A DNA stretch of 64,000 nucleotides from Candidatus Planktophila dulcis (GTDB taxonomy: Bacteria; Actinomycetota; Actinomycetes; Nanopelagicales; Nanopelagicaceae): assembly GCF_002288225.1 (NCBI RefSeq), contig NZ_CP016777.1:434001-498000 (forward strand). Reading direction: 5' to 3'. The notes under the pieces are model-generated. The model saw nothing but the letters and a program-made list of their open reading frames with translations, had not been told where the DNA came from and did not search any database. The translations under genes and the position numbers were made by a program. This document shows positions 783 to 16,099 of the stretch, in pieces. Every line of letters begins with the position of its first letter. The first letter of the stretch is position 1.

Positions 783-812
783 TTTTTTCTCCATTTCTTC
801 TCAATTAAAGTA

Positions 813-1382: not shown

Positions 1383-1569
1383 AACAAATAGTCCTTACTG
1401 GACCTCTATACAAGAGACCCGCTCTTCCAGCGGTGTCTTTCATCGCTGGCAGGTCTTCCTTTAGAACCACCGTGCGCGAGTTATGCGCGGATTGGTACTA
1501 AGCAAGCTAAAGGGCTTAACGCTTAGTTCTTGACCTAGGGAAAGGGTAGCAGGGGGGAGTGTCAAACGA

Positions 1570-1600: not shown

Positions 1601-1655
1601 CTATAGATACTGTGGAAACGGGAGGCCGTAAAGAGGCCAACATCTGGAGGAATTC

Positions 1656-2282: not shown

Positions 2283-2311
2283 AAACTAGTCACAATATGA
2301 GAGACTAGTTT
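2283..2311 (+). repeat. Inverted repeat just before the GIY-YIG gene start
   Basis: Arms AAACTAGTC (2283-2291) and GACTAGTTT (2303-2311) are perfectly complementary over 9 bp with an 11-base loop, ending five bases before the ATG at 2316. No clear Shine-Dalgarno separates it from the ATG. It could be an operator, a terminator of the upstream gene (a short T run follows) or an RNA hairpin affecting translation. Confidence 0.6.
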
Positions 2312-2315
2312 AACT

Positions 2316-3365
2316 ATGGCTACCGCAGCAGGCGAGATCTACTTCATCGGCGAGAAAGACCTCCGAACCAAGGAATTAACCCAGTACTTTAAGGTTGGAA
2401 TCGTCCGAGAAAATGAAGAGAACGCAGATCGTGATTCCACACAGAGACTGCTGGAGCATCAAACAGGCAATCCACGCGAGCTCTATATTGAAAGTGTTGT
2501 GAAGACTGAGCTTGTCGAGCTCGTGGAGACGCTTCTTCATAAAAAGTTTGCCCCACTTGGAGTCCGTGGTGAATGGATGTTGTTGAACTCTGATGAACTC
2601 GCCAAGGTTAAGTCGGAGGCAGATTTACTGGCTTCTGAGGCAATAGAAATCATTAGTGATATCCAGAAGGCAGAGAAGCTAGCCAAGATTCAATCCGATG
2701 AGAATGTCATCCCGGCTACTGATGAGCTAAAGCAGCTCAATGAGATTTATCTTGAGTCCAATGCCAAGCTAAAGGCCTGTGAAGATATGTTTGACGTAAT
2801 CAAGGAAATCTTTGCAGAAGCACTCGATGACGAGGATGAAGAAGAGGAAGTCGAGGCATTCGTACAAGTGCAAGAGCGTAAAGGTAAATCCACCTTCGAT
2901 GAAGATGCTTTCAAAGCAAAGTACTTTGATATCTACTCCAAATTCACCATAACTAAGTCCACCGTTAAGGGCACGCCAAGTTATGCGGGCTCTCGTAGCT
3001 TTAAGAAAGAGTTTAAAGATTTTGACCCAAACTTTGCGACAATGGTAGAAAGCTTTGAGCCACTTGTAGAGAAGATTGAGGCTGGAAAGGCAACCAAGGA
3101 ATCTTTACATGGGTTTAGTCTTGAATTACGGCGAGTTAATGCCGAAGCACTATGGGCGAAAATGAAATCTGAAAGCAAGATCAAGGTTGCGTGCGGAACA
3201 CATGCTGGAATCGATGGAGTCTTTAAATGGGTTCGTACAGAAAAGGTCACCGAGTCCTTAGATAAGAAAGCCCTCAAGGATGCCCACCCTGACCTAGTCG
3301 CAGAATTCACCACCGCGGGGGAGTCCACCAAGGCCGTCATCGTTGATCCTAAGAAGGGCTACTGA
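2316..3365 (+). CDS. GIY-YIG nuclease family protein (T5orf172-like)
   Basis: The first 100 residues carry a GIY-YIG-like core of the T5orf172 / MUG113 type: GEIYFIGE at 6-13, FKVGIV at about 24-29, then an Arg- and His-bearing stretch (RLLEHQTGNPRELY) and LLHKKFAPLGVRGEWM, matching the family order Tyr, Val-Gly-(I/V), Arg-x3-H, and Glu. The remaining 250 residues are acidic and helical (DDEDEEEEVEAF near 170) with no second domain recognised. Proteins of this type occur in phages and mobile elements as putative DNA endonucleases. Length 349 residues is longer than stand-alone T5orf172 proteins. It is placed in the accessory region, upstream of the palindrome cluster. Confidence 0.75.
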   Translation: MATAAGEIYFIGEKDLRTKELTQYFKVGIVRENEENADRDSTQRLLEHQTGNPRELYIESVVKTELVELVETLLHKKFAPLGVRGEWMLLNSDELAKVKSEADLLASEAIEIISDIQKAEKLAKIQSDENVIPATDELKQLNEIYLESNAKLKACEDMFDVIKEIFAEALDDEDEEEEVEAFVQVQERKGKSTFDEDAFKAKYFDIYSKFTITKSTVKGTPSYAGSRSFKKEFKDFDPNFATMVESFEPLVEKIEAGKATKESLHGFSLELRRVNAEALWAKMKSESKIKVACGTHAGIDGVFKWVRTEKVTESLDKKALKDAHPDLVAEFTTAGESTKAVIVDPKKGY

Positions 3366-3383
3366 GCGAACCCAGGCTGAGGC

Positions 3384-3493
3384 TTTGTTAGGAATTCCTA
3401 ACAAAGGAGTGTTCGGAATCCGAACGGCTTGTTCGGCTAGCCGAACGGGCTAACAGAGGCCCCCTTTACGCTCAACCGTATGATTATCATACG
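3384..3493. repeat. Cluster of four palindromes
   Basis: Four separate dyads lie within 110 bp: a perfect 22-bp palindrome at 3384-3405 (half site TTTGTTAGGAA); GTTCGGAATCCGAAC at 3411-3425; the perfect GTTCGGCTAGCCGAAC at 3431-3446; and CGTATGATTATCATACG at 3477-3493. The middle two share GTTCGG/CCGAAC arms. No T run follows, so simple termination is unlikely. The cluster fills much of the gap between the GIY-YIG gene and the TPR gene and abuts a SOS box. Confidence 0.8.
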
Positions 3494-3505
3494 AACACCT
3501 GTTCG
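3492..3505 (+). promoter_or_regulatory. Probable LexA (SOS) box
   Basis: CGAACACCTGTTCG fits the Gram-positive SOS core GAAC-N4-GTTC and departs by one base from the actinobacterial consensus CGAACRNRYGTTCG. The same motif class occurs twice in the lexA promoter region of this window (23145-23158 and 23204-23217). It lies 134 bp before the preferred start of the TPR gene, suggesting the cassette at 3639-5826 is induced by DNA damage. Confidence 0.65.
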
Positions 3506-3638
3506 AATTCTGTGTTACTCTCCGCTTCCCCCAAAAACTCCGCTCCAAGCAGCAACCCCAGGCCCAAGCGAAGATGTCAGTGACGGCCTGTAACTTCTCC
3601 AACTGTCAGAAGCACCATTGTCGGAAGAAAAGGAAACG

Positions 3639-4568
3639 GTGAGCACCGAGAAAAACGAGAAAGACACCCGAGAGCAAGAACTCTGGGATCGCATTAGTAC
3701 GTCCGAAGGGACAGAACGCGCTGAAGTTCTAGATGAACTCAGCCACATCGCATACAAGCGAGATAACTACATAGAGTGCTTACATTTAGTAGATACATCC
3801 ATTGATATCTACTTTAAGCAAGGTGGATTAGATCTTTATCTTAAAGAGCTCATTCATCTCTATCATGGCAAAGCTCATTGCTACGAAAATCTCAAGCGTC
3901 ATAAAGAGGCTGCCGAGATGCATGAAGAGCTGGCAAAGATGAAAGATCTCGATGATGATCTTGAAGGCCAAGCAGAGGAACTCCGTGCAGCAGGACGTGC
4001 ATGGTACAGAATTGACGAGTGGCGAAAGTCGCTCGACAACCACATTGCCGCAAAGACAATAACATATCCAGACATTTCAACCATCACGATGGGAATTGAT
4101 CTCCTCAACGTTGGAATGGCGCTAGCGAAGTTAAAGAGCTATCAGGATGCAATCGATAGTTATTTAAATGCTCGCTCCCTCTGCAAAGAGGCAAAGAATC
4201 CAGAATTTGTTGGATGGTGTGATAACTACTTAGCACTTTCCTACATAGCCCTTAAAAATGGCCCAGAAGCAAGATTCCATGCACAGCACTACTTCAATTA
4301 CACGAAAGTAGCTGAAGACCTCGGAATGGAAGCGTATTCACGTTACCGACTAGGGGCAGCGCACCTACTCTGTGAAGAGTATGCAGATGCCGAAAAGCAC
4401 CTAGTTCGATCACTTGAACTACTCACCCTTGATGAGGATAAAGACTGGGAAGATATCGTCGCGGTTAACAAAGAGCTTGCAATAGCGCTGACAGCCCTAG
4501 ACCGCGCTGAAGAAGCCCAAGCCCGTCTTGAGAGAATCAAGACAATTGAAGAGACAATCGCGGCATGA
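3639..4568 (+). CDS. TPR-repeat protein
   Basis: A soluble, fully helical protein of about 309 residues built of tetratricopeptide-like repeats: paired helices with AWYRIDEWRKSLDNHIAA, GMALAKLKSYQDAIDSYLNA, LALSYIALKNGPEARFHA, LGAAHLLCEEYADAEKHL and AIALTALDRAEEAQARL. TPRs usually mediate protein contacts. A TTG seven codons upstream (3618) is possible, but the GTG at 3639 has AGGA upstream and is preferred. It overlaps the next gene by four bases (ATGA), so the two are translationally coupled. A SOS box and a palindrome cluster lie upstream. No enzymatic domain is seen; the partner is unknown. Confidence 0.75.
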   Translation: MSTEKNEKDTREQELWDRISTSEGTERAEVLDELSHIAYKRDNYIECLHLVDTSIDIYFKQGGLDLYLKELIHLYHGKAHCYENLKRHKEAAEMHEELAKMKDLDDDLEGQAEELRAAGRAWYRIDEWRKSLDNHIAAKTITYPDISTITMGIDLLNVGMALAKLKSYQDAIDSYLNARSLCKEAKNPEFVGWCDNYLALSYIALKNGPEARFHAQHYFNYTKVAEDLGMEAYSRYRLGAAHLLCEEYADAEKHLVRSLELLTLDEDKDWEDIVAVNKELAIALTALDRAEEAQARLERIKTIEETIAA

Positions 4569-5047
4569 TGAAGTCTCGAGCAGTATTCGCAGCAGGTGCG
4601 GTGTTCCTATCCGCCGCACTTGCTGCGAGTTTCATCATGAGTGATGACTCATCAAAAACAGTTACAAAACCTCTCAAACTTAAGCCCTCCCAGGTGCTCA
4701 CCTGGGACTGCGAATACCCTGAATACAAGCCTGTATCCATCATGATCTACTGCGGAGACGGCGGGGCTTACATCGACAAGATTAACTGGAAGTCCTGGAA
4801 TCAAGACGGGGCTTCAGGAACAGGGGAGTATTACAAGAATCTCTGTGAGCCAGATTGTGCCGATGGAAAAATCGTTCATGCCCCTGTGAATGTCAGGTTG
4901 AGTGAACTCACCCCTCGCAAAGGAAAGTATTACTTGAGAACACTGGACATGAGCTCTATAAGTGGAAAGGATTTCCCATGGGACGAATCAGGTGTGTTTG
5001 AGTGGGATGTCATGGAGTTCATTGAACATATGAATTGGGATTCATAA
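4565..5047 (+). CDS. Secreted hypothetical protein
   Basis: A 160-residue protein with an N-terminal hydrophobic signal (RAVFAAGAVFLSAALAASFI) and no lipobox. The mature part includes the pattern INWKSWNQDGASGTGEYYKN followed by CxPDC, which I have seen in small exported actinobacterial proteins of unknown role (Trp-rich, Gly-Thr-Gly, Cys pair). Four Cys residues could form disulfides. The gene starts inside the TPR gene (ATGA overlap) and its TAA overlaps the ATG of the next gene, so the three are one coupled operon. An exported product in an otherwise cytoplasmic cassette is odd. Confidence 0.7.
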   Translation: MMKSRAVFAAGAVFLSAALAASFIMSDDSSKTVTKPLKLKPSQVLTWDCEYPEYKPVSIMIYCGDGGAYIDKINWKSWNQDGASGTGEYYKNLCEPDCADGKIVHAPVNVRLSELTPRKGKYYLRTLDMSSISGKDFPWDESGVFEWDVMEFIEHMNWDS

Positions 5048-5826
5048 TGATTACATACGACCCACGGGATTTTGCATTGGAACTAGAAGGCCATCTTAAT
5101 ATTCGCGACGAGATTGAAAAACTCGACCCATCTTTAAAAAGTAGGCTTGAATCAATTTTCTTTTTAGACAATAGAATATTTGAGACTTCAAAATTGTGTG
5201 ACAAATTGCAACTTGAGATATCTAAACTAAAAAAGGAATACGACAGTCACAATTTTAATTATGGACTAGGCGAAGCTCATAGAGATTTTGCTATCAATAA
5301 AAAGCTGAGAAATGAAACTTGGGCGAAAATTTACGAAGCAGGGAAAGAGCGAGACGGCTATTACGAAAAAATACAGGAAATTCAAACTGAGCGTGATCTA
5401 CTTTTAAAAAAGGTAGGAGACAATTACAGAAAGTTTAAAACTTCTAACCAATTTTTTGAGCTTCACGAGAAGAGAGTCGCCTTGTATTCCATCGTGTCAG
5501 TGGATTTCATGGGTAAAATCTCTAAATTCATTCTGCTCACCGAGTATCAACGCGCACAGATTTCCCTTGGTAATCTAGATATCTATTCGGTCGACTCCCC
5601 ACTAGGCAAGGCTTGCGTTGGCAAACGAATTGATCAATCTTTCTCATACACAATTCCGAGTGGAGCAGAAATAACAGGAAAAATTCTCGAATGTGCACTT
5701 CCGTCTCTTGAGCAAATGGAGCAGATTATTTCTAAATTGAATCGCGCGATTGTAAGCAGTCCAAGTGTGAGTCTAAATTTAAATGCCTGGACTTCAAACA
5801 ATACTCGCTATCAAAAGGGAGGATGA
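5047..5826 (+). CDS. Coiled-coil hypothetical protein
   Basis: About 259 residues with long charged helical stretches (LQLEISKLKKEYDS; ERDGYYEKIQEIQTERDLLLKKV) that predict coiled coil between roughly residues 45 and 140, and a more globular C-terminus. The chosen ATG overlaps the stop of the secreted protein gene (TAATG); an ATG four codons upstream is in frame. Codon use is A/T-rich like the restriction genes that follow. The C-terminal part (ISLGNLDIYSVDSPLGKACV, YTIPSGAEITGKILE) resembles the GreA/GreB C-terminal fold in its pattern of a final SPLGKAL-like loop. That resemblance is suggestive only, but would make this a distant Gre-like, RNA-polymerase-binding protein. Confidence 0.6.
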   Translation: MITYDPRDFALELEGHLNIRDEIEKLDPSLKSRLESIFFLDNRIFETSKLCDKLQLEISKLKKEYDSHNFNYGLGEAHRDFAINKKLRNETWAKIYEAGKERDGYYEKIQEIQTERDLLLKKVGDNYRKFKTSNQFFELHEKRVALYSIVSVDFMGKISKFILLTEYQRAQISLGNLDIYSVDSPLGKACVGKRIDQSFSYTIPSGAEITGKILECALPSLEQMEQIISKLNRAIVSSPSVSLNLNAWTSNNTRYQKGG

Positions 5827-5927
5827 TTCGTGGTGTCATGGCAAACGCATCTATCCAGAGTGACACTTTTCAAGTTTCATTCTGTATACCGGAATCTGCA
5901 AATTCGTCGAATGTTAGTAATCTATGT

Positions 5928-5956
5928 TCATGAATGAAATTAAAGGTCATTCATGA
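5928..5956 (+). promoter_or_regulatory. Inverted repeat enclosing the start of the restriction operon
   Basis: Arms TCATGAATGA (5928-5937) and TCATTCATGA (5947-5956) are perfectly complementary over 10 bp with a 9-base spacer. The ATG of the SNF2 helicase gene (5953-5955) is inside the right arm, and the only Shine-Dalgarno-like stretch, AAAGG (5942-5946), is in the loop. It may act as an operator or as an RNA hairpin limiting translation of the restriction genes. Confidence 0.65.
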
Positions 5957-7815
5957 CTCAAGATTTATCAAGCAGATGGATTGTAGAAGATAATTTTGTA
6001 GTTAATTCTTTAAGCAGAGAAGAAGACAATAGAGTCTCAGCCTCAATTTTTTGGGGAGCACGACTCGATGACTTTACTTCGGCAATTGGATTAACGATTG
6101 AAGGCTTTGGTTCATTCCAGTTCAGAGTTGAAGAGCAGAGTCACTTGCTAAAACTTGAAATTAAAAGCCAGAATTCTGCAGCTGATATATCTAAGCTAAA
6201 GAAGTTTCCTGTGGACCATATCGTCAGCGATGAGTCTTGGATTCCATTGGTTCTGGATGAAGCTCAACGATATTCAGATTTTATCACTGAAAATCATCTC
6301 CAATTAGGAGAAGTAATTAATTTGGCAGATTACATGAAATTAATTGCTGGTAAAAATCAGAATCTGGTACAAGTGATTATTGAAGGAAATCTCAATTTTT
6401 TAACGGATTCAGCACTCCTAAAAAGTATCGACGCAGGGCTTGCTCTTGAACCCTACCCGTATCAAAAAAAGGGAATCGATTGGCTATGTGGAGTTAGGTC
6501 TAGTGGCGTAGGGGCTATTTTGGGTGACGAGATGGGTTTGGGAAAAACAGTCCAGCTATTGGGACTTATTAACAACGAGCTGAAAAATGAAGGTAAACCC
6601 AGGGTGCTTGTAATTGTCCCTAGTAGTCTCAAATTGAACTGGATCTCTGAATTCAACAAATTCCTACCTGCTCTAAAACCTTATATACACGCGGGACCTG
6701 ATCGACAGTTAATCCCTTCTCGAATTGGAGAAAATGAAGTCGTTATTACAACGTACCCAATTATAAATCGTGATTGGGGCTTCTTGTGCAAACTAGATTG
6801 GACCCTCATTATTTGCGATGAAGCACACGTGATGAAGAATCCTGCTTCAGTTACTAGAGATTCAGTCAGGAAATTTGCCTCAGCTCCCATTTTCTTATCG
6901 ACCGGAACACCGCTAGAGAATAATCTCGTAGATTTGTGGTCGCTCACAGATTTAATTCGACCAGGGATAATGGGTAGTTTGCACTTTATGAAGGACCTAG
7001 TGCAAAACCAAATTGCAGAAGCTGATCGCATTGGAGAATTAGTCCGACCATTAATCATGCGTAGAATTGTCAAGAATGTATTGCCCGATCTGCCAGAATT
7101 GGTGGAGAAGGTCCACTGGATAGAGCCAAGTCTTCAATTTACTCAAGAATACGAAGACGTGAGAAGAGAATCAGATTTGAGCAAAACAGGAGGCTCAAAA
7201 TTTGGGCTCATCACTAAGCTTCGGCGCTTTTGTACCTATCCGCCGCTAGTTGGGGATTACATGTTGAACGTTCCAGATGCGAAGGTGGATATATTGCTCG
7301 ACTTGCTTGATCGCGTGTACGAGCAAAATCAAAAAGCTATTATTTTTACCTCTTGGCACGACTCTGCGGATTTGATTTTACGTGTAATCCAAGAGGCCTA
7401 TCCAGGTGTTTATTGTGCCGTAATTGATGGCCGAGAAGTATCAGATATTCGGTTTCCAAAAATAGTTGATTTTCAATCTGTAGATGGATTTGCGGTGCTT
7501 GTGTGCAATACTCGCGCAGCGGGCGAGGGTCTAAATATTGTGGCTGCAAACCACGTGGTGCATTTCGATAGGCAGTGGAATCCTGCTAAAGAAGCTCAGG
7601 CTACAGCTCGCTCTCATCGAATTGGTCAAGTCAATACCGTTTTCGTACACAAACTTGTCTATACAGGAACTATTGAAGAAGTCATTGACGATCGCTTACT
7701 ACTTAAGGCTTACTTGGCTCAACAGACATTAGATCCGGCAGTAAAAGAAGAAGATGAAAAGTCCATCGCAGAGGCGCTTGGAATCAGACCCACCTACGTA
7801 AATAACGGAGTATAA
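5953..7815 (+). CDS. SNF2-family DNA helicase/translocase of a restriction system
   Basis: A 620-residue SWI2/SNF2 superfamily II ATPase. Visible motifs: Walker A GDEMGLGKT at 191-199, motif Ia VIVPSSLKLNW, Walker B DEAH at 289-292, motif III STGTPLENN, motif IV IIFTSW, motif V TRAAGEGLNI and motif VI with RSHRIGQ. The N-terminal 160 residues are not recognised. It is the first gene of a run with a GHKL ATPase two bases downstream, then HNH and Sau3AI-type nucleases, and a convergent methyltransferase. This arrangement is known from predicted restriction systems in which a helicase and a MORC-like ATPase work with endonucleases; the helicase would translocate on or remodel DNA. A start-proximal hairpin suggests tight expression control. 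Confidence 0.9.
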   Translation: MTQDLSSRWIVEDNFVVNSLSREEDNRVSASIFWGARLDDFTSAIGLTIEGFGSFQFRVEEQSHLLKLEIKSQNSAADISKLKKFPVDHIVSDESWIPLVLDEAQRYSDFITENHLQLGEVINLADYMKLIAGKNQNLVQVIIEGNLNFLTDSALLKSIDAGLALEPYPYQKKGIDWLCGVRSSGVGAILGDEMGLGKTVQLLGLINNELKNEGKPRVLVIVPSSLKLNWISEFNKFLPALKPYIHAGPDRQLIPSRIGENEVVITTYPIINRDWGFLCKLDWTLIICDEAHVMKNPASVTRDSVRKFASAPIFLSTGTPLENNLVDLWSLTDLIRPGIMGSLHFMKDLVQNQIAEADRIGELVRPLIMRRIVKNVLPDLPELVEKVHWIEPSLQFTQEYEDVRRESDLSKTGGSKFGLITKLRRFCTYPPLVGDYMLNVPDAKVDILLDLLDRVYEQNQKAIIFTSWHDSADLILRVIQEAYPGVYCAVIDGREVSDIRFPKIVDFQSVDGFAVLVCNTRAAGEGLNIVAANHVVHFDRQWNPAKEAQATARSHRIGQVNTVFVHKLVYTGTIEEVIDDRLLLKAYLAQQTLDPAVKEEDEKSIAEALGIRPTYVNNGV

Positions 7816-7816
7816 A

Positions 7817-9445
7817 ATGGCAAATATTGAAACTTTTCAAAATATCCCAGATGCAGTTCGTTCTCTGAATGGTTTTTCCCATATTGGATACACGCCACAA
7901 ACTGCCATCGCGGATATTATCGATAATTCAATATCTGCCAAAGCAACCAAAATAAATGTGCAGATTATTCCTAGAATCGAAGGTACAACTGTCTACATCG
8001 CCGACAACGGAACTGGAATGTCGAGAGAAAGACTAAAAGAAGCCATGAGGTTTGGTTCTTCAACTGACTTAAAGAACTCAGAGCTATCTGTGTATGGACT
8101 TGGATTCAAACTAGCCTCGCTCTCATTTGCGCCAAGATTTACAATGATTAGCCGCGATAGTAAAGGTTCAGTGAATGCTGCTACATGGGATAAAGCGGAC
8201 CAAGCAGAGCACCCTTGGCAAGTAAGCATTACTGATGAACCGGCTCGTCAGCACTTGGACGTATTAACTGCTGCAACGAACGGAAAGTCTGGAACGGTGC
8301 TTGTTTGGGAAAACGCCGATCTCAAACTGGCCGATTCAATCAAAAGACAAACGCTCGACCAAGGAAAAATGTATGAGCGAATCAGGAACAACATCAAGAA
8401 TCATTTGGCTTTAGTTTTTCATAGATTTTTAGAGGGCACCGCTGGTGGCTATCAAAGGGTTGAGATTTTCTTGGATAATGAAGAAATCAAACCATTTAAT
8501 CCTGTTGACAAAGTTTTTGTGCTATCTGACTGGCACCATCCGGTTGAAGAGTTTCAGGAAAAGATTGTGCATGATGGCAAAGAAGTAGCCGTGGCATATT
8601 CCATTCAAGCTTTCTTGCTTAATCCGGATAAATCAGCGGAGAATAAGGAGGTATTGGAAAAGTCAAGACAAGAGCTGAATTTGCAAGGCATTTATGTTTA
8701 TAGAGATTCCCGACTTCTACAAATGCCAGACTGGTTAAGTTTTGCTACAACACGGCACAATGCATATAACGCTTTAAGATTTGTACTTGAAATTGATCCA
8801 AGATTGACGACACATGTTGGTTTAGACGTAAAGAAGAGTAATCTGGAGCTTCCAGTAACAATGTTTGAATCTCTGAGCCCAATTGTAAAACAATTCAGAA
8901 CAGAGGCTGAAAGCAGAAATGTAAAACGTCGTCGTGATGATAATGCAAAAAGAACGCCTGCAGATGTACACGCCGCTTCCTCAGCAAATATTTATAAGCA
9001 TCGAAATGATTTACCATTACCACCGATAGAGCGAATATCTAGAACTGATGTAGAAGTGACTAATTCATATGGAACTAATACTTTACGACTTCGGGAATTC
9101 GCTAGGGCTGTAAAGCCTGAAGAAGTTGTACTACCAGTCGAATCTTTAGATGATGGTGTTTTATACGAGCCAGTATTCAATGGTTCTGACATCTTAATCA
9201 AGCTGAATCAGGGACATGATTTTTACCAAAAGTATTACCTGCGGTGTATTGGAAATCCAATAGCCATGGAAGCTATGGACACACTGCTTTGGTGTTTTGC
9301 TAGAGCCGAGGTTCAAAGTACAGCTGAAATCCGAACACAATTTGCTGAAATGCGAGAATTTGTCTCTACATTATTGCGGAAGATTGCAGAGGAGAAGCAA
9401 TTTGTGGAATTAGACGACTCTGAAGATGGAGATTTGGATGAGTGA
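7817..9445 (+). CDS. GHKL ATPase, MORC/MutL-like, of a restriction system
   Basis: A 542-residue protein with an N-terminal GHKL (Bergerat) ATP-binding fold: N-box DIIDN at 33-37, G1 box ADNGTGM at 62-68, G2 box YGLGFK at 93-98. A probable S5-like transducer region follows to about residue 330 (Lys near KKSNLELP at about 337), and the C-terminal region is unassigned. Such ATPases (prokaryotic MORC/paraMORC) dimerise on ATP binding and clamp DNA, and are known next to helicases and nucleases in restriction systems. It starts two bases after the SNF2 stop and overlaps the HNH gene by 8 bases, so all are co-translated. It is not Hsp90, GyrB or a histidine kinase, since their additional domains are absent. 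Confidence 0.85.
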   Translation: MANIETFQNIPDAVRSLNGFSHIGYTPQTAIADIIDNSISAKATKINVQIIPRIEGTTVYIADNGTGMSRERLKEAMRFGSSTDLKNSELSVYGLGFKLASLSFAPRFTMISRDSKGSVNAATWDKADQAEHPWQVSITDEPARQHLDVLTAATNGKSGTVLVWENADLKLADSIKRQTLDQGKMYERIRNNIKNHLALVFHRFLEGTAGGYQRVEIFLDNEEIKPFNPVDKVFVLSDWHHPVEEFQEKIVHDGKEVAVAYSIQAFLLNPDKSAENKEVLEKSRQELNLQGIYVYRDSRLLQMPDWLSFATTRHNAYNALRFVLEIDPRLTTHVGLDVKKSNLELPVTMFESLSPIVKQFRTEAESRNVKRRRDDNAKRTPADVHAASSANIYKHRNDLPLPPIERISRTDVEVTNSYGTNTLRLREFARAVKPEEVVLPVESLDDGVLYEPVFNGSDILIKLNQGHDFYQKYYLRCIGNPIAMEAMDTLLWCFARAEVQSTAEIRTQFAEMREFVSTLLRKIAEEKQFVELDDSEDGDLDE

Positions 9446-10241
9446 AACGCTCGCTGATCTTTCCCGAGCTTTAGGGCTAGATTTAGTTGATTCTCCTCTT
9501 CAGGAAGGCTCAGGTTTCACATTCGGATTGCGCGTGAGAGACCTCCCTGCTCCCTCTGGGTTTGAGATACGTGTCCAGCAATCACTGATGTCGACGAAGG
9601 CACAACTATTTCTGGACAATTTCCCAGGAGACTTATTGTTAACGTGTAAAGATTCCTTCAAAATGTATCAGGAACAGATATCCAGCGTAATTTGTTCAGC
9701 CGAAACTTCCGGATTGTCAGTAGAACTATTGGTCGATGGAAATCCAAATTTGATGGAGTTTTCAAATTTGAAATGGGAATCGCTCTCGCTGACACTTCAT
9801 AAGAAATTTGTTAATTATGAGGATGCATCAAATTGCTTGAAGCTAACTGTTCTGATTGCATTTTCAATTCTTATTCCCTTAATAGCTGAAGAACCGGAAC
9901 AACTACTGGAAGAAGTTTCATCCGCTTACCAGGAGGAAGGCAGAAAGAGTTCGGTTACCATAAATAAGTATGAACGCAGTAGAGTGAATAGAGCCATTGC
10001 GCTTGAGATACACGGGTTCATTTGTAAAGGGTGCGATTTACGAATGGCAGATCTGTATGGTCCAATCGGTGAGGGCGTAATTCACGTACATCACTTGGAG
10101 CCTGTTTCGTTAATGGATTCACCTCGTATTCTAAATCCTGCAACAGATTTAGTTCCATTGTGTCCAAATTGTCACGCAATTGTTCATCGAAGGAACCCAC
10201 CATTAAGCATTCTAGATTTGAAGATGTCAATTGGCAGATGA
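9438..10241 (+). CDS. HNH endonuclease
   Basis: About 267 residues. The C-terminus holds a full zinc-bound HNH fold: CKGC near residue 192, HVHHLEP near 216, an Asn in NPATDLVPLCPNCH, and a final His in HAIVHRR. The first His of HVHH and the last His are the expected catalytic and metal ligands. The N-terminal 170 residues are of unknown fold and may recognise DNA or partner proteins. The ATG at 9438 overlaps the end of the GHKL gene; an ATG at 9426 is also in frame. As the second nuclease of the locus it may make the cut after helicase/ATPase action, or act on modified DNA like McrA-type enzymes. Confidence 0.88.
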   Translation: MSETLADLSRALGLDLVDSPLQEGSGFTFGLRVRDLPAPSGFEIRVQQSLMSTKAQLFLDNFPGDLLLTCKDSFKMYQEQISSVICSAETSGLSVELLVDGNPNLMEFSNLKWESLSLTLHKKFVNYEDASNCLKLTVLIAFSILIPLIAEEPEQLLEEVSSAYQEEGRKSSVTINKYERSRVNRAIALEIHGFICKGCDLRMADLYGPIGEGVIHVHHLEPVSLMDSPRILNPATDLVPLCPNCHAIVHRRNPPLSILDLKMSIGR

Positions 10242-10267
10242 AGAACTTGGAATTGTAGTGGTTGAAA

Positions 10268-11617
10268 ATGCCTTCGAATATTAGTATCTCAGCCAATGAG
10301 AGTTTCGGGTATGACAAGAACTCGGCTCAATCAATATATAATTTCGCATTACTTCTAACTGATAAATCGCTGGCAGAGGCAATTGTACTGCCAGAGAATC
10401 TTGAGAACTTGAAAGACCGAGGAAAACTAGGGACTCTTGTCGAGAAGTATTATTTTAAACATGAACCACCTAACGACCACAACCCTGATTTTGCAGAGGC
10501 TGGCGTGGAACTAAAAGTTACAGGTGTAATAAAACATGGCTCTGGAAGGTATGTTGCAAAAGAACGATTAGTTCTAACAATGATTAATTACGACCATATA
10601 GTTAAGGAATCCTGGGAATCCAACAGTTTTTTCAATAAATGTAAAAAGATGTTGATTATGTTTTACCTTTACTCGCGTGATATTCCAGTTATAGATCGTA
10701 AATTCGTTCTAAGTCCATTGATGTATGAGATACCTGAATCTGACTTACCCGTAATTAGAGCTGACTGGGAGAAAATTCAAAGCAAAGTCATTCAAGGTAG
10801 AGCTCATGAGTTATCCGAAGGTGACACGTTCTATCTAGGTGCGTGCAGAAAAGGAGCCGGAGGCGTCAAGGAGAAGTTAAAGTCGCAGCCATTTTCTACA
10901 GTAGGAGCACCAGGACGCGCTTTTTCATTCAAGCAAGGCTATTTGAATCAACTGATTTCTAATGTTCAGGATGAATCAGATTTAGGCGTGACAGGGGAAG
11001 TTTCAATAGAAGAGGCTACCCAATCTAGATTCGCCCGGTTTTTGGGGAAGAGTATTGACGAAATATCTATAGAACTAAATCATCATAAACGAGATAAGAA
11101 CCATAAGAATTTTCATCGTGAGATTGCCATAAAGATTCTCGCCAATGGTGGTTCTTCAGTCAGTGAGATTGTTAAGGCTGGTATTGAAATGAAAACTGTG
11201 CGCCTTCAGAGTAATGGCAAGCCCAAGGAATCGATGTCTTTCCCAGCTTTTGATTTCATTGAGATATTGAGTGAGATTTGGGAGGAGTCAGTTTTTTCCG
11301 AGAAAATAGAACGTAAGTTTTTACTGGTTGTATTTACAACTGGTCCTGACGGAAAAGAGAGACTGGAAAAGGTTGGGTATTGGAATATGCCTTATGCCGA
11401 TCGCCTCGAAGCCGAGAGGGTTTGGCACGATACACAAAGAAGATCTGCATTAAATGCTCACGATTTGCCCGGTATGAAGGAAAGTCATGTGGCACACGTG
11501 CGACCAAAGGCTAAGGATGGAAGCGATAAGGCTCTGACTCCTCAAGGCGATATGAGAACTAAACAATGCTTCTGGCTGAATGCTTCTTATATCGCACAAG
11601 TCGTAGCCTCTATTTAG
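10268..11617 (+). CDS. MutH/Sau3AI-type restriction endonuclease
   Basis: About 449 residues with the MutH/Sau3AI catalytic signature: GTLVEKYYF, then NPDFAEAGVELKVTG giving D74, E81 and K83 (D-Xn-E-x-K), and a downstream ERLVLTMINY strand. Sau3AI itself is about 490 residues with two MutH-like halves and cuts GATC; the length here fits that two-lobed plan. An ATG at 10268 is preferred over a TTG at 10262; the Shine-Dalgarno is weak either way. The last bases overlap the convergent cytosine methyltransferase gene, which resembles M.Sau3AI, supporting a matched enzyme pair. Target GATC is inferred from the family, not shown. Confidence 0.85.
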   Translation: MPSNISISANESFGYDKNSAQSIYNFALLLTDKSLAEAIVLPENLENLKDRGKLGTLVEKYYFKHEPPNDHNPDFAEAGVELKVTGVIKHGSGRYVAKERLVLTMINYDHIVKESWESNSFFNKCKKMLIMFYLYSRDIPVIDRKFVLSPLMYEIPESDLPVIRADWEKIQSKVIQGRAHELSEGDTFYLGACRKGAGGVKEKLKSQPFSTVGAPGRAFSFKQGYLNQLISNVQDESDLGVTGEVSIEEATQSRFARFLGKSIDEISIELNHHKRDKNHKNFHREIAIKILANGGSSVSEIVKAGIEMKTVRLQSNGKPKESMSFPAFDFIEILSEIWEESVFSEKIERKFLLVVFTTGPDGKERLEKVGYWNMPYADRLEAERVWHDTQRRSALNAHDLPGMKESHVAHVRPKAKDGSDKALTPQGDMRTKQCFWLNASYIAQVVASI

Positions 11618-12869
11618 ATTTGATTTCCATCGCAAGAACTTTGCCAACTTGTTCAATTAATCCAATTACCAGCGCATTACCCATAAAGAATGCTCGCTTG
11701 GCGTCAGTGACCACTTTGCCTTCTGCATTCATCTGGCTCCACTCGTCAGGAAAGCCGTTGAGCCGCTCAAGTTCGACTGGCGTCAATCTCCTATAGCCAC
11801 TCTTTGTTTTGATGATGTGCTTGAATCTAGATGGAGTTGTCCCACCTTCACCAGTCAAGATTGTTCGACTTGGGTTGGTCAGAAGATCAGGAAAAGCCAT
11901 CTTTCCTTCTGCATAGTTATAGGTAACACCGCTTCCTTTGTGTGTACGCTCAATACTTTTTGCTCCTTTAAGGTATTTCCACTCTTTGAGTCTTTTATCC
12001 TCAACCCAATATTCATCAGGCACTTGTGAGTCTGGTTGCAGAATGTCTCCAAGCACAACTGGATTTGATGCCAGCTTTGCTTGCGACTTAACTGTGTACG
12101 CGACTCCATCAATGAAGTAGCCAGAGTTTAGGAACGGGCTCTTATCCTGCCCTTTGTTGAACTTAGCGCTGATTTCATCCGCTTCTTGATCTAAGTCAAT
12201 TTCCTGAAGGTTGTCCGTTAACTTTTCTATTGGAAGAGCTCTAGCGAGAATGCCGGTCTTTGCAATAACGGACTCGGGCGTCGATTTCTTTGCACCCTTT
12301 TTCAATCTAGTAGCAACGATAAATACGCGAATTCTCCTCTGGGGAAATCCATACTCGGCAGCGTTAACTACGCGCCATTCAATTGAATAGCCTTCGTCTC
12401 CCAAAGTCTTAAGCATTACGGCGAAGTCACGTCCACGTTGATTAGATGGTGACTTTAGAAGTCGATCTACATTCTCAAGAAAAATGAACCTAGGCTTCTG
12501 CCCATTAACCAAACGGAGAATTTCCCACCATAGAACACCTTTTTTACCTTTAAGTCCCTTGGAGGAATTGAGGGTTTTGGCTACTGAATAATCTTGGCAA
12601 GGGAATCCACCTACAAGGAGATCAATATTCTTGGGAAGCGCTTTTACTTTTGCAATATCAAGATTGGTATGGCCCTCTTCACCGAATTGAGCGACATAAA
12701 CATCTGAGGCATGTTGGACTTTGGTTGCGGGTTCCCATTGATTAGAGAATGTGGTTTTCCAACCAGCGCGAGCTAAGCCGATGCGGAAGCCACCAACGCC
12801 AGCGAAGAGTTCAGCCACATTTCCGACTGAATTTGTTGGCTCTTTAAAGCCTTTTGATTTGTATGCCAC
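11610..12869 (-). CDS. DNA (cytosine-5) methyltransferase, Sau3AI-type
   Basis: A 419-residue C5-methyltransferase with ordered motifs: I (ELFAGVGGFRIG, 20-31), IV (GGFPCQDYS, catalytic Cys91), VI (ENV, 132-134), VIII (QRR, 177-179), and IX/X near the C-terminus (ERLNGFPDEW, MGNALV). The stretch SNQWEPATKVQHASDVYV and the long KGLKGKKGVLWW segment are, from memory, typical of M.Sau3AI-like enzymes that make GAT-5mC. The start is GTG with GGAGG six bases upstream. It would protect host GATC sites from the convergent nuclease, and the genes overlap by 8 bases at their 3' ends. A loose inverted repeat ACTGAC/GTCAGT (12903-12908 and 12939-12944) lies in its promoter region. Confidence 0.93.
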   Translation of the reverse strand: MAYKSKGFKEPTNSVGNVAELFAGVGGFRIGLARAGWKTTFSNQWEPATKVQHASDVYVAQFGEEGHTNLDIAKVKALPKNIDLLVGGFPCQDYSVAKTLNSSKGLKGKKGVLWWEILRLVNGQKPRFIFLENVDRLLKSPSNQRGRDFAVMLKTLGDEGYSIEWRVVNAAEYGFPQRRIRVFIVATRLKKGAKKSTPESVIAKTGILARALPIEKLTDNLQEIDLDQEADEISAKFNKGQDKSPFLNSGYFIDGVAYTVKSQAKLASNPVVLGDILQPDSQVPDEYWVEDKRLKEWKYLKGAKSIERTHKGSGVTYNYAEGKMAFPDLLTNPSRTILTGEGGTTPSRFKHIIKTKSGYRRLTPVELERLNGFPDEWSQMNAEGKVVTDAKRAFFMGNALVIGLIEQVGKVLAMEIKSK

Positions 12870-12965
12870 TTATTGCCTCCGGGCTGAAGCATAGGAATAA
12901 GGACTGACAAGGTGTGGGATCGACGCGCCATTCCCTAAGTCAGTGTTGGCCTCTATGGTGGACTT

Positions 12966-13478
12966 ATGAAGTCCTACCTCCTCATCCTGCTGCCTCTCGC
13001 TATCTTCTTGCTTTGGGTCATCCGTCGTGCTCCCAAGAGCTTAACTTCTGCCAATACTCGCCCCGACTTCATCCGCCAGGCAGCTGACTCAATTCATGGA
13101 CCAGAAGTAGTCGTTGCTTCTTCATCCAGTGAAGCAGCACCCCATGGAGTCGATTACAACTATGACGTTGTGGGGGAGAGCTTTCAGAGAGATCACTTGA
13201 TGGCTTTGGTTAGATCTCATAATGCATTTAGCGTGGGTGAGATATATGGAATCGCAACTCTTGAGCCAGAGCCAACAAATGAGTTTGATCCAACTGCTGT
13301 GAAGGTTGTTGTGGAGGGCGTGCAGGTGGGATATATCCCTAAGTTTGATTCAGCTGCTGTGACGCAGATGATTGGAAAGAGCGGTAAGAAAGAGATGCAG
13401 GTTCCGGTTCGAATTGGCTTTGATACTGATTCCCCTCAGCCGCTTATTGGGGTGCGCATTGCACTTGTTGTTAAGTGA
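12966..13478 (+). CDS. Membrane-anchored HIRAN-domain protein
   Basis: A 170-residue protein. Residues 3-20 form a hydrophobic segment followed by RRAPK, giving a single N-terminal membrane anchor with the rest probably cytoplasmic. Residues 70-165 match the HIRAN domain: VVGESFQRDHL, then LEPEPTNEFDPTAVKVVVEG and VQVGYIPKFDSAAV, the usual E-P-x-N-x-x-D-x-x-A-V plus GYIP signature. HIRAN domains bind DNA 3' ends in eukaryotic HLTF and occur alone in bacteria near restriction or phage genes. It is divergent from the methyltransferase and 16 bp upstream of the PRTase gene. A membrane-tethered HIRAN is unusual. Confidence 0.8.
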   Translation: MKSYLLILLPLAIFLLWVIRRAPKSLTSANTRPDFIRQAADSIHGPEVVVASSSSEAAPHGVDYNYDVVGESFQRDHLMALVRSHNAFSVGEIYGIATLEPEPTNEFDPTAVKVVVEGVQVGYIPKFDSAAVTQMIGKSGKKEMQVPVRIGFDTDSPQPLIGVRIALVVK

Positions 13479-13494
13479 TCACCGGTAGTGTGAT

Positions 13495-14121
13495 ATGAGC
13501 AAGCCGAAACACATAATTTTGCCGAACACATATAAATTGTGGGATAAGGGTATTTCACTAAGTCTGTACTCGCGCTCATATGACCCAATCACGCACAAAC
13601 AAGATTTTACAGAGCTCGGCCAGGCAGTTTACGAGTATAAATATTATAGAGACTTATCTTTGGCGAGAAGGCAAGAATTGGTCAGGCTTTGTTCAGGAGC
13701 AATCTCAAAAACTCTCAAGTTAGAGGAAGAAACTGAAAGGTTAAATTTCAATAGCTGCATCGGGGTGATGCCGAACAGAACGACCGGGCATTCACTTCCC
13801 CTAGATCTGGCTTTGCAGTTATCGGTAAAATTCGATTGGTTACGAGATGACTCGAATTGCTTAATTAAGGCAAAGGAACTACCCGTCATGAAGGGTTTGC
13901 TAGATTACAACCTGAGAATAGAAGCCCTGAAAGGTGCCTACGAGGTTGATCCTAAATATGATTTTGAGGGGATTCGAGGATTCTTGATAATTGATGATGT
14001 ATTTGAAAGTGGTTCTACGCTCCGCGAGGTTTGTAGGAGCTTAGAGAGAATCGTGCCCGAAATTCCAAGGTATGTACTCACGTTGACACATTTGAGGAAA
14101 GTTTGGGACGCTCCAAGATGA
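13495..14121 (+). CDS. Phosphoribosyltransferase-fold protein (type I)
   Basis: A 208-residue protein with a clear PRPP-binding loop, LIIDDVFESGSTL at 164-176: the two acidic residues D167-D168 and the following S/G/T-rich loop are the type I PRTase hallmark. An upstream VMPNRTTGHSLPLDLALQL stretch corresponds to the region before the loop in ComF-like and orotate PRTase-like proteins. The substrate is unknown. Its stop overlaps the ATG of the SLOG gene (ATGA), so both are made together, suggesting nucleotide metabolism or signalling as a two-gene module next to the restriction locus. It is not a recognised purine or pyrimidine salvage enzyme by length or by the N-terminal half. Confidence 0.75.
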   Translation: MSKPKHIILPNTYKLWDKGISLSLYSRSYDPITHKQDFTELGQAVYEYKYYRDLSLARRQELVRLCSGAISKTLKLEEETERLNFNSCIGVMPNRTTGHSLPLDLALQLSVKFDWLRDDSNCLIKAKELPVMKGLLDYNLRIEALKGAYEVDPKYDFEGIRGFLIIDDVFESGSTLREVCRSLERIVPEIPRYVLTLTHLRKVWDAPR

Positions 14122-14678
14122 AAATAGTTCTTGCAGGTTCTCGCAAGCTAGCTTTTATTCCTGAACCAGTGATTTCAAGGCTTCAGGATCATATGCAAGC
14201 TGGAGACACTTTTTTCATAGGAGATGCACCTGGCGTAGATTCAACTTTTCAGCAATTTATGGTCAGGAATAGTTACGAGAATGTTGAAGTCTTTTCAAGC
14301 GCTGGTTATGTACGTAATAACATCGGAAAGTGGCAGGAACATCAGATTGAAACAACTTTGAAAAGCAAGTCAAATGCCCTACACGCTTTCAAGGATCGCG
14401 AGATGTGCAAGCGTGCAGATTTAGGAATTATGATTTGGGATCAAGAGAGTGCTGGAACCTTGTCTAACGCACTCGATTTGTTAGAGCAAGAAAAGATTTG
14501 CCTTATTTACAATGCAGTGGACCAGGAATTCGTAAGGTTTGAGACAAGTGAAAGTTTGAATAAATGGCTTGTTTCACACCGAGAGGTAGCTGATGAAGCG
14601 CGGTCTAGACTTAATCGCTTTCGCAATCGCATGAAAATTGGTTCTAAGTTGGATTCGATTCAATCTGAACTGTTTTAG
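14118..14678 (+). CDS. SLOG-superfamily protein (YspA/DUF2493-like)
   Basis: From the ATG at 14118 (ATGA overlap with the PRTase stop) this gives 186 residues. The N-terminal Rossmann-like domain shows KIVLAGSRKL at 2-11 (GSR at 7-9), GDAPGVDSTF at 35-44, FKDREMCKRADLGIMIWD at 91-108 and SAGTLSNAL at 111-119. This is the nucleotide-pocket order of the SLOG superfamily that includes DprA, LOG and YspA. Family members bind or process nucleotides, and several are predicted sensors or effectors in conflict systems. A TTG five codons upstream (14103) is less likely. The 3' end overlaps the convergent PH-like gene by 35 bp. Function is inferred only to the level of nucleotide binding. Confidence 0.75.
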   Translation: MKIVLAGSRKLAFIPEPVISRLQDHMQAGDTFFIGDAPGVDSTFQQFMVRNSYENVEVFSSAGYVRNNIGKWQEHQIETTLKSKSNALHAFKDREMCKRADLGIMIWDQESAGTLSNALDLLEQEKICLIYNAVDQEFVRFETSESLNKWLVSHREVADEARSRLNRFRNRMKIGSKLDSIQSELF

Positions 14679-15471
14679 GCAACTCCAACTTCGGCTCCGC
14701 CCCCACCGCTTCCTTCTCCATCTTCTTCAGTTCTGCAATTACTTCCGCATACCCATGTTCATGAGCTGATGTTGCAGATCCTAGAAAGCGATTGAATTCT
14801 CGCCCTGTTGCAGGTGCAAAGCGCACACCCGATGTCTTCTGGCGGTTTGAGACGCTGATGAAGTAATCGGATTCATCCTCGTTTGTGGAGAGTTGTAATA
14901 GTTTGTCGAAGTTCCACTCTTGAGTCTTGATAGGACCTGTGAAGATAAGGCGCTCAGTAGTGAGCATGACTACTCCTTGATCTTTATCTACTTGAAGCTC
15001 GATGCCGGGAACTATCTGGCCTTTCATTGCGCCAACGCGAAAGCGAATACCTCCCCCTACGGGGATGCTCACACCTGTGGAGCCTCCGACATAGGAGGAA
15101 GGTGTGCGACCTGTCTCGTGGAAGATGCCTGTGGCAGACCAGAGAGTGTGCTCACCCTTTTGTTGCATCAGTGTGTTGGGTACTGAATCTTCACCCTTGG
15201 ATGCTGCTGTGAAGACGGTGATCAATTTGGTCAGTGATTGGACATCTTCTTGCCAGATCTCATGCAGGCGGTTGTATTCATTGGTGGCAGCTTTATCTGC
15301 GCGCTTTGCTTTGAAGCTTGCTATCCATCCCATGTGGATAAGGATAGTGACTGGCAGTGACATTGTGGGGTTTGTGCGGGCACCACGTCTGGTGGCTAAG
15401 AGTGAAACTCTCTCAGCCACTTCAGATGATTCAGCTTCAAAGACCTTGCTAATTGAGTAACGCTGCCTCAA
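14644..15471 (-). CDS. PH/GRAM-like domain protein
   Basis: A protein of up to 275 residues. Residues roughly 135-215 look like a bacterial PH (YokE/GRAM-like) domain: a basic beta strand, then GVVMLTTERLIFTGPIKTQEWNFDKL, matching the family's L-T-(N/T)-x-R-(I/L)-I-F and following W/I-x-(F/Y)-x-x-(I/L) pattern. The middle is helical (EIWQEDVQSLTKLITVFTAA) and the C-terminus is charged (ELKKMEKEAVGAEPKLELP). The start is uncertain: the longest frame begins at a TTG, with a GTG at 15420 and an ATG at 15363 as alternatives. It is convergent with the SLOG gene. Base composition is closer to the core, so it may already be outside the transferred block. Confidence 0.6.
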   Translation of the reverse strand: MRQRYSISKVFEAESSEVAERVSLLATRRGARTNPTMSLPVTILIHMGWIASFKAKRADKAATNEYNRLHEIWQEDVQSLTKLITVFTAASKGEDSVPNTLMQQKGEHTLWSATGIFHETGRTPSSYVGGSTGVSIPVGGGIRFRVGAMKGQIVPGIELQVDKDQGVVMLTTERLIFTGPIKTQEWNFDKLLQLSTNEDESDYFISVSNRQKTSGVRFAPATGREFNRFLGSATSAHEHGYAEVIAELKKMEKEAVGAEPKLELPKTVQIESNPT

Positions 15472-15753
15472 TTCAAAGGCCGGTTGACCAATCCAGCAGC
15501 TTGGTCTGAATTATCGATTTCGGTCGACGGGATCCGAAACTGGTAGCAAAGTAATATCTCTTGAAATAGATGACCATTCAATTGGCTATCTATTGGCAGA
15601 TATTTTTTAGAGTAGTTACAGATAGTTGTGGGGCAGCGGGGATTAATCACTTTCTGTAGTAGAAGCGCATTATTCGACTGTTATATTCTCTATGTGCTTA
15701 TTCGTTAGGTTGGCATACCTGAGATACAAGACGAATTGACACTGGAGGTGGGG
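15472..15753. other. Gap without convincing gene
   Basis: No frame here has a plausible start, Shine-Dalgarno and protein-like composition; the one 60-codon frame on the minus strand looks random. The sequence is AT-rich and contains short direct and inverted words only, such as CCATTCAATTGGC followed by TTGGCAGATA, none clearly functional. It separates the accessory block from the candidate small RNA, tRNA-like gene and conserved core, so it may hold the right boundary of the transferred region, but I find no attachment-site repeat. Confidence 0.4.
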
Positions 15754-15826
15754 AAGAAAAAACCCGCAGATTGCTCTGCGGGTTTATCTCTGTAGCTTCT
15801 GCTTTCGCAGCCGCCCCGTGACTCGG
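15754..15826 (-). ncRNA. Candidate small RNA with own promoter and terminator
   Basis: On the minus strand, TTGAAA (15855-15860) and TATCTT (15834-15839, with an upstream TG giving an extended -10) are 15 bases apart. Transcription would start near 15826. The RNA would contain a CTGC-GAAA-GCAG tetraloop hairpin (about 15798-15809) and end in the strong hairpin AACCCGCAGA / TCTGCGGGTT (15761-15784) followed by a T run on this strand. No ORF is present. The hairpin could also terminate rightward transcripts. I do not recognise the RNA family. Confidence 0.4.
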
Positions 15827-15934
15827 TGAAGCAAAGATAGCACCAAGTTTTGAATTTCAAGAGAGTTACTTATCCACATATTGATTCTTGTTGATCAAGA
15901 AGTTGTCTTCAGTTCTCTAAGTTACGCAACGCAT

Positions 15935-16008
15935 GTGGCTGTAGCTCAAAGGATAGAGCGCCCTGATGACTCGGAGGCAGGTTGTGGGTTCGAATCCCAC
16001 CAGCCACT
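15935..16008 (+). tRNA. tRNA-like gene with irregular anticodon arm
   Basis: 74 bases carry a perfect acceptor stem (GTGGCTG / CAGCCAC), a perfect D-arm (GCTC / GAGC, loop AAAGGATA) and a perfect T-arm (GTGGG-TTCGAAT-CCCAC). The 23 bases between D-arm and T-arm, one more than usual, do not form a 5-bp stem with a 7-base loop: the best 17-base arm has two mismatches and would give anticodon GAC with a pyrimidine at 37. The D-loop resembles Arg tRNAs and the region contains CTCGGA, one base short of an Arg(CCG) loop CTCCGGA. It may be a degenerate Arg tRNA, a functional oddity, or a tRNA whose arm I cannot fold by eye. CCA is not encoded. Confidence 0.6.
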
Positions 16009-16017
16009 TGCACACTC

Positions 16018-16056
16018 AGAAGCCCCAGGGTTAGTCGCCTGGGGCTTCTTTGTTTG
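16018..16056 (+). terminator. Rho-independent terminator after the tRNA-like gene
   Basis: AGAAGCCCCAGG (16018-16029) and CCTGGGGCTTCT (16038-16049) form a perfect 12-bp GC-rich stem with an 8-base loop, followed by TTGTTTG. It begins nine bases after the tRNA-like gene, so that gene is expected to be transcribed as a short monocistronic unit, which argues against simple decay. Confidence 0.85.
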
Positions 16057-16099
16057 TGGAGGTGGTGACATTGTCGGTCTGAGGTTTTAACCTCTAGGT

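Follow-up and report, generated by a model that had tools for sequence, protein, structure and literature searches.

The window analysed here is a 64,000-nt stretch of the genome of Candidatus Planktophila dulcis (NZ_CP016777.1, positions 434,001 to 498,000, forward strand), which is a single 1.35-Mb contig. Near its start lie genes for an SNF2-family ATPase, a MORC-family GHKL ATPase, an HNH nuclease and a Sau3AI-family restriction endonuclease, which form one co-directional operon, with a convergent C5-cytosine methyltransferase gene downstream. The five genes and their families had been proposed in a first-pass annotation of the sequence, and all were confirmed at the positions below by hidden Markov model (HMM) searches (Pfam, NCBIfam) and by intact motifs. 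We refer to the SNF2, MORC and HNH genes as the cassette and to their products as the engine.

5953..7815, + strand: SNF2-family ATPase, 620 aa, with SNF2-rel_dom and Helicase_C domains; proposed motor of the engine
7817..9445, + strand: MORC-family GHKL ATPase, 542 aa, with HATPase_c_3 domain and S5 motif; predicted ATP-driven DNA clamp
9426..10241, + strand: HNH nuclease, 271 aa, with an N-terminal domain (about residues 1–157) and a C-terminal HNH domain
10262..11617, + strand: Sau3AI-family type II restriction endonuclease, 451 aa from TTG; proposed GATC reader and second nuclease
11610..12869, − strand: C5-cytosine methyltransferase, 419 aa, of the Sau3AI-associated clade; predicted to provide self-protection

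The genes had been described as contiguous and overlapping. They are contiguous, but not every junction overlaps: SNF2 and MORC are 1 nt apart and HNH and Sau3AI 20 nt apart, MORC and HNH overlap by 20 nt, and the converging Sau3AI and methyltransferase genes overlap by 8 nt. Besides its TTG start at 10262, the Sau3AI gene has an alternative ATG at 10268.

The SNF2 protein matches Pfam SNF2-rel_dom (8.6e-52) and Helicase_C (3.1e-16), its GKT and DEA motifs are invariant in 86/86 orthologues (window included) and it aligns over its full length with the SNF2 proteins of four plasmid cassettes at 31–33% identity. The suspected MORC-like ATPase matches HATPase_c_3 (4e-26), and its ATP-binding residues N37, D63, G65, G67, G94 and K340 are invariant in all 86 orthologues, again including the window. 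At residue 291 it carries the sequence GIYVYRDSRLL, which fits the published S5-domain motif GhXhhpXXRhl, the defining mark of MORCs in Iyer et al. (2008; PMC2292703). This motif is matched in 79/86 orthologues versus 0/86 shuffled sequences. Furthermore, among solved structures the family profile ranks MORC2 and MORC3 first, closely followed by MutL, and in a rooted MORC tree the window protein lies with the cassette MORCs across a 100/99 branch, opposite nine MORCs from other contexts. Thus, the GHKL protein is a true MORC. The HNH assignment by Pfam alone is weak (19.2 bits, below the cut-off of 21.4); a profile of six HNH orthologues finds the HNH domain of EcoKMcrA (6ghc) at 7.2e-07, and all 86 orthologues retain the motif's four Cys and four His residues. 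In the predicted structure (pLDDT 88.1), the HNH part matches 6ghc with Z 6.9 (rmsd 4.8, 90 residues, 26% identity). The best structural match of the N-terminal domain is the DUF1054 protein 3mqz (Z 9.2, rmsd 3.8, 144 residues), and Foldseek returned no match for this domain at E 0.001.

The Sau3AI protein matches Pfam MutH (6.7e-36), scores 397 bits with NCBIfam restrict_Sau3AI (cut-off 300), aligns with the Sau3AI chain 4pxg over residues 32–394 (6.5e-48) and contains the catalytic motif D76...E83-x-K85. The methyltransferase (Pfam DNA_methylase, 2.5e-61) shares 43–51% identity with its counterparts at 8 distinct Sau3AI loci and 38% with that of plasmid locus L015. Its identity to 88/88 cassette methyltransferases is 23–37%, or 24–28% for the 18 aligned over at least 380 residues. 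Moreover, in the methyltransferase tree (computed without L044 on grounds of length), it forms a clade of 10 with nine Sau3AI-associated enzymes, with support of 100, bearing out its earlier description as Sau3AI-like. Since it belongs to this class, its specificity is probably GATC. In other Actinomycetota the two activities also occur in one chain: L148, L151 and L154 encode NCBIfam-confirmed fusions of full Sau3AI and a C5-methyltransferase (864–904 aa), and L150 and L152 encode proteins of likewise about 900 aa that, by length only, are taken as such fusions. A MutH/Sau3AI-family gene also adjoins pglZ in a BREX-5-like locus of a Haladaptatus plasmid (L174, 6926-7774).

To place the locus among its relatives, we scanned GTDB genomes with a MORC alignment and annotated the best 80 of 539 relatives' loci with HMMs built for this analysis from few seeds (two for EcoRII-C). 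Four of the five scan seeds came from loci with EcoRII-N, which biases the reader proportions given below towards EcoRII-N. Altogether, 98 loci were annotated, 94 of them with a cassette-type MORC and 90 with all three genes; three of the latter failed length filters and L099, on the same contig as L040, was removed, leaving an 86-row tree. A complete cassette is present in 77 of the best 80 GTDB loci, and the loci in the tree come from at least nine bacterial phyla, so the grouping of SNF2, MORC and HNH is not due to chance. HNH directly follows MORC in 86/86 cassettes, with a gap of at most 21 nt, and two gene orders dominate, SNF2-EcoRIIN-MORC-HNH (36/86) and MORC-HNH-SNF2-EcoRIIN (34/86). 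Across 70 loci with EcoRII-N, the window not among them, the distance matrices of the three proteins agree with r of 0.95–0.97, the highest of 999 permutations in any comparison being 0.26. Thus, within the EcoRII-N class, SNF2, MORC and HNH travel together. Plasmid searches, with HNH and then MORC as query, recovered SNF2, EcoRII-N, MORC and HNH with dcm and vsr in five genera, namely, Marinobacter, Sphingomonas and Rhizobium, with an EcoRII-type nuclease, and Pseudomonas and Fuscovulum, with none annotated.

Most cassettes include a candidate sequence reader. EcoRII-N is the effector-binding domain of EcoRII, listed as a type IIE enzyme in PMC548270, and a stand-alone EcoRII-N protein is encoded in 64/77 cassettes. 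Of the other 13, 11 encode a different conserved protein, L075 encodes an HpaII nuclease together with a second MORC, and L054 has none of these, although it holds an additional protein with the C-terminal part of MORC. HpaII is also classed as a type IIE enzyme. In the 11 loci, EcoRII-N is replaced by a conserved family encoded upstream of SNF2, of about 275 aa or with about 110 extra N-terminal residues. Its model (pLDDT 75.5) had a best VIA-align Z of 3.2 among 419 chains and no Foldseek match at E 0.001, and the family is a candidate reader by gene position only. These loci nest among the EcoRII-N cassettes (FastTree: 99 for their own branch, 82–100 for the enclosing forks), and one of them is nested in the rooted MORC tree as well (99/97), so the reader probably changed at least once. 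The reader classes need 4 changes on the methyltransferase tree, which is the minimum and as low as in none of 200 shuffles.

The window locus departs from all these cassettes. HMM annotation detected no EcoRII-N in it, and a PF09217 search found none in the host genome, although the control genomes gave nothing either, so this search is weak alone. Vsr was likewise not found in the genome (control positive); it is also not seen in 17/64 EcoRII-N loci. Instead, the window holds Sau3AI where EcoRII-N is missing, and, like EcoRII, Sau3AI is a type IIE enzyme whose effector domain is separate. Moreover, the sole methyltransferase of the locus is of the Sau3AI class, whereas 61/64 EcoRII-N loci carry one of another class. 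We also considered an extra reader domain hidden in one of the engine proteins and rejected it, because their lengths (620, 542 and 271 aa for SNF2, MORC and HNH) lie near the cassette medians (628, 542 and 278) and leave no room for it. Among the cassettes, that of the window sits on the longest branch (1.86 and 2.42), and no other was seen with Sau3AI (0/77 other GTDB cassettes). We suspect a reader change here; Sau3AI may have replaced EcoRII-N, or EcoRII-N may never have been present in this lineage.

The neighbours of the EcoRII-N cassettes bear on the role of HNH. Among the 64 loci, a full-length EcoRII-C nuclease accompanies 14 and a fragment 4, and in 46 neither was detected nearby, with nucleases more than 7 kb from the cassette or beyond contig ends escaping detection. 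After tree filtering, 49/62 loci are without full-length EcoRII-C within 7 kb. A methyltransferase is present in 47 of the 49, and 40 of these 47 blocks hold no other open reading frame of at least 150 aa; in the remaining seven, two of which were scanned, L055 holds an MvaI/BcnI nuclease and L093 does not. It thus seems that the engine does not need a classical nuclease, and HNH is likely its own. The suggestion that two nucleases in one operon imply two targeted DNA states therefore finds no support. Eight non-core proteins around EcoRII-N cassettes were scanned. An AIPR/MzaE-like family (three members scanned) flanks 10 of the 49 loci, and a second family, found at 6 loci, gave helix-hairpin-helix/RNAP-alpha-CTD matches in one of two scanned members.

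On this basis, we tentatively favour, at not quite even chances, a GATC-specific restriction-modification (R-M) locus in which the conserved ATP-dependent engine is addressed by the type IIE enzyme Sau3AI. What is seen is the gene content, the intact motifs, the co-inheritance of the engine in the EcoRII-N class, the Sau3AI-class methyltransferase and a genome in which EcoRII-N was not found. PMC548270 names three type IIE enzymes, EcoRII, NaeI and Sau3AI, that each acquired an effector-binding domain independently, and Sau3AI is read as the address mainly because type IIE effector domains accompany SNF2 machines in two classes. The second class is found on Lactiplantibacillus and Priestia plasmids, where the Sau3AI C-terminal domain, without the catalytic half, lies beside a PLD-SNF2 gene and a C5-methyltransferase gene:

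L015, 4208-8738: PLD-SNF2 and Sau3AI C-terminal domain, with Vsr
L018, 30-4257: PLD-SNF2 and Sau3AI C-terminal domain
L172, 6806-11033: the same arrangement, a near-copy of L018 (SNF2 99% identical)

Sau3AI of the window thus looks like an address and perhaps also a second nuclease. By analogy with CglI, where the B3-like domain of the nuclease subunit recognises a site, an SF2 ATPase powers movement away from it and cleavage follows once complexes collide (PMC5737866), we propose the following mechanism. The methyltransferase would mark C in host GATC, and Sau3AI would bind unmethylated GATC on incoming DNA, probably via its C-terminal effector-binding MutH-like domain; in most of the relatives found, the stand-alone EcoRII-N protein would take this part. 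Binding of Sau3AI would load a MORC dimer and the SNF2 motor, which may remodel the DNA or travel along it, and HNH would then cut near the site or where complexes meet, while Sau3AI may cut as well. We infer these activities, the contact between Sau3AI and the engine and the order of events. With less confidence still, we extend the proposal to a general class, in which SNF2-MORC-HNH engines and a parallel class of PLD-SNF2 proteins would be addressed by type IIE effector domains, namely, EcoRII-N, Sau3AI-C and perhaps HpaII and the 275-aa family, each with a matching C5-methyltransferase; in the window, the whole nuclease would be the address.

Several observations weigh against Sau3AI as the address of the engine. 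Sau3AI pairs normally work alone. No second Sau3AI locus with the cassette was found in genomes (396 of the phylum with Sau3AI and HNH queries, 296 of the order, 394 of the class and 150 relatives), plasmids, phages or viral contigs (HNH, MORC and Sau3AI queries). In the phylum, 13/396 genomes have a Sau3AI-family hit at E 1e-20, and 11 of these hits, including the window's own, exceed the cut-off. None of the 12 other loci contains the cassette in the regions fetched, which extended at least 7 kb on both sides for 8 of them (L150 and L156 are on contigs shorter than 5 kb, and L145 and L151 have less than 2 kb on one side). In the phylum, the HNH query recovered one further cassette (L164), which includes EcoRII-N. 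It also hit five HNH genes whose fetched surroundings contain neither SNF2 nor MORC; the contigs of three of these are shorter than 9 kb. Only the window's own genome has a cassette MORC among the 296 of the order; in the class, 15/394 match MORC at E 1e-60, the window's own over its full length and the others partially. Sau3AI records from plasmids (8 of 18 fetched) and phages (3/3) gave no MORC or HNH match. The combination was thus seen once, and recurrence does not show selection for the pairing. The expectation that the neighbours would be conserved accordingly holds for SNF2, GHKL and HNH and fails for the link to Sau3AI (0/77 cassettes, 0/12 Sau3AI loci).

The trees add further reservations. 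The engine tree likewise needs the minimum of 4 reader-class changes, so engine and reader are mostly passed on together, and within the EcoRII-N class the reader tracks the engine (r 0.82–0.84) above the methyltransferase (0.63), whose fit to the reader is hardly above its fit to the engine (0.47–0.58). Free exchange of readers between engines, which would show as low agreement between the two, was therefore rejected: engine and reader normally stay together, methyltransferases are swapped inside a class, and switches of reader class are uncommon. The methyltransferase type of the 11 loci occurs without their protein in L054 and L105, the L105 enzyme being 62% identical to that of L054, which blurs the rule. 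L105 also has a related SNF2-MORC pair without an HNH match, but with an AAA ATPase and an LlaJI nuclease; this locus, on a contig from a viral collection (3187-12207), comprises SNF2, MORC, a protein resembling the MORC C-terminal part, an AAA_5 ATPase, the LlaJI nuclease and a methyltransferase. As for the window itself, the three-gene tree joins it to L054 with support of 94 in what is flagged as a long-branch meeting, and the MORC tree puts it at the base of the cassette clade (81/81), a position that is unsure given the long branch. Finally, GATC is rare in this genome and congeners are alike, so the DNA shows no sign of activity: avoidance, considered as such a sign, is uninformative, with observed/expected ratios of 0.64 (window), 0.72 (four 20-kb stretches elsewhere in the genome) and 0.62–0.83 (four congeners).

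Alternatively, two independent systems may simply adjoin, a normal Sau3AI R-M pair lying downstream of a cassette that had lost or never had a separate reader. The absence of the cassette from the 12 other Sau3AI loci fits such an arrangement, as do the position of the locus in a low-GC stretch with other defence-like genes and the long branch of the window, which could reflect relaxed constraint. However, HNH and Sau3AI lie on the same strand with 20-nt spacing, the engine proteins have intact catalytic motifs and normal lengths and the only methyltransferase is of the Sau3AI class, in contrast to nearly all EcoRII-N loci. An ATP-dependent nuclease with neither an address nor matched protection would, moreover, presumably be hazardous. 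The absence of Vsr says little here, given the EcoRII-N loci that show none either. On balance, we regard two adjoining systems as rather unlikely.

The cassette could also act after Sau3AI, which would cut unmethylated GATC first, leaving the engine to degrade or trap the cut DNA or to stop its repair, and not to read sequence. Full nucleases do stand beside some cassettes (EcoRII-C in 14/64 EcoRII-N loci, HpaII in L075, MvaI/BcnI in L055), but the majority of EcoRII-N loci are without full-length EcoRII-C. Furthermore, 11 features are listed for the 15 kb fetched of the 19-kb plasmid L013; dcm, vsr, MORC, HNH, SNF2 and EcoRII-N are among them, but no further restriction gene is, PLSDB gene tables being incomplete. 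Such a clean-up role is improbable. A division of labour in which the EcoKMcrA-like HNH attacks wrongly methylated DNA and Sau3AI unmethylated DNA appears more improbable still. Both sequence profile and structure liken HNH to the modification-dependent EcoKMcrA, but the likeness is confined to the HNH domain, the N-terminal half being at best DUF1054-like, and the methyltransferase of the locus should itself produce 5-methylcytosine. The usual reader derives from EcoRII, an enzyme that restricts DNA at its unmodified site. Overall, the first-pass interpretation is partly supported, and the locus still qualifies as a putative multi-subunit GATC system, with Sau3AI as the favoured address of the engine.

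The locus lies inside a low-GC stretch of about 16 kb (about 1-15900; GC 0.41-0.46 versus 0.45-0.51 around it), which borders a tRNA gene (15935-16008) and holds other defence-like genes. As regards a tRNA att site, no direct repeat of at least 16 nt of window 15921-16060 was found in the 57 kb searched, and inverted 16-nt matches to this region are confined to a single position 20.65 kb before the window starts. A gene at 5035-5826 (+), 126 nt ahead of SNF2, encodes a 263-aa protein with a GreA/GreB C-terminal domain (PF01272, 1.2e-8). Adjoining the methyltransferase start is the gene for a HIRAN-domain protein (12966-13478, +; PF08797, 1.4e-6), followed at 13495-14678 (+) by a phosphoribosyltransferase-like gene (PADLOC PsyrT, 3.2e-6) and an overlapping small gene (14103-14678), SLOG/DprA-like by eye and without a Pfam match; the two are possibly a PsyrTA/ShosTA-like toxin-antitoxin pair. 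The same island encodes, at 2316-3365 (+), a protein with a T5orf172/MUG113 domain, which we take to be of the GIY-YIG type. Elsewhere in the window are an FMN riboswitch (28252-28379, +) and a SAM-IV riboswitch (37576-37691, +).

If the proposed general class exists, type IIE effector domains, so far seen as allosteric parts, would also be targeting subunits, and an ATP-dependent restriction engine could be re-aimed at other DNA words by a change of reader. The engine would, in addition, offer a bacterial model for the action on DNA of MORC clamps, which eukaryotic chromatin contains as well. Together, the window and its relatives pose a direct question, namely, whether the reader, be it EcoRII-N, Sau3AI or the 275-aa family, aims a common engine.

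Among known systems, the closest are the operons that Iyer et al. (2008) described from gene neighbourhoods, in which MORC and SWI2/SNF2 occur with HNH or EcoRII-like nucleases and VP1/RAV proteins; the link drawn to them by the first-pass annotation is sound. According to the main text of PMC2292703, SWI2/SNF2-type MORC operons share with the window the MORC ATPase, the SNF2 helicase, the HNH (EndoVII-fold) nuclease and a cytosine methyltransferase, and their partners are EcoRII-like nucleases, VP1/RAV DNA-binding proteins and Vsr. An EcoRII-like or VP1/RAV (EcoRII-N-like) partner, frequent though not universal there, was not found in the window locus, which instead has Sau3AI with its methyltransferase; neither Sau3AI nor GATC occurs in that main text. 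With the Sau3AI R-M system (type IIE, GATC), the locus has in common a nuclease that passes the NCBIfam threshold and a methyltransferase from the Sau3AI-associated clade, but it is operon-linked to SNF2, MORC and HNH, an arrangement not seen at the 12 other Actinomycetota Sau3AI loci fetched. CglI and NgoAVII, as presented in parts of PMC5737866, work in a similar way, with an SF2 ATPase, a B3-like sequence reader, a nuclease and ATP-driven movement away from the site; they differ in that one polypeptide combines the reader with a PLD nuclease, a Z1 domain is part of the ATPase and MORC is not mentioned. None of the five window proteins has a PLD or B3 match at E 0.01. EcoRII-N is B3-like, and it gave one weak B3 match.

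MZA (MzaABCDE) resembles the locus in that the window MORC is similar to MzaB (150.7 bits, below the cut-off of 850) and in the AIPR/MzaE-like genes that flank the EcoRII-N loci noted above. By contrast, the window has SNF2 where MZA has a Z1 protein, and none of 16 window proteins scanned with Pfam matches AIPR. Scores for Zorya and DISARM are far below the NCBIfam cut-offs (ZorD 223.5 bits versus 1500; DrmD 104.1 versus 950), and the SNF2-like helicase of a Prevotella study (PMC5608340) belongs to another R-M system and is not relevant. In the open-licence literature, we found no paper testing a MORC-SNF2-HNH operon and none on a Sau3AI version or on reader change. The operon class of MORC, SNF2, HNH and EcoRII has been known since its description in 2008 by Iyer et al.; new here are its Sau3AI version and the idea that the reader may change.

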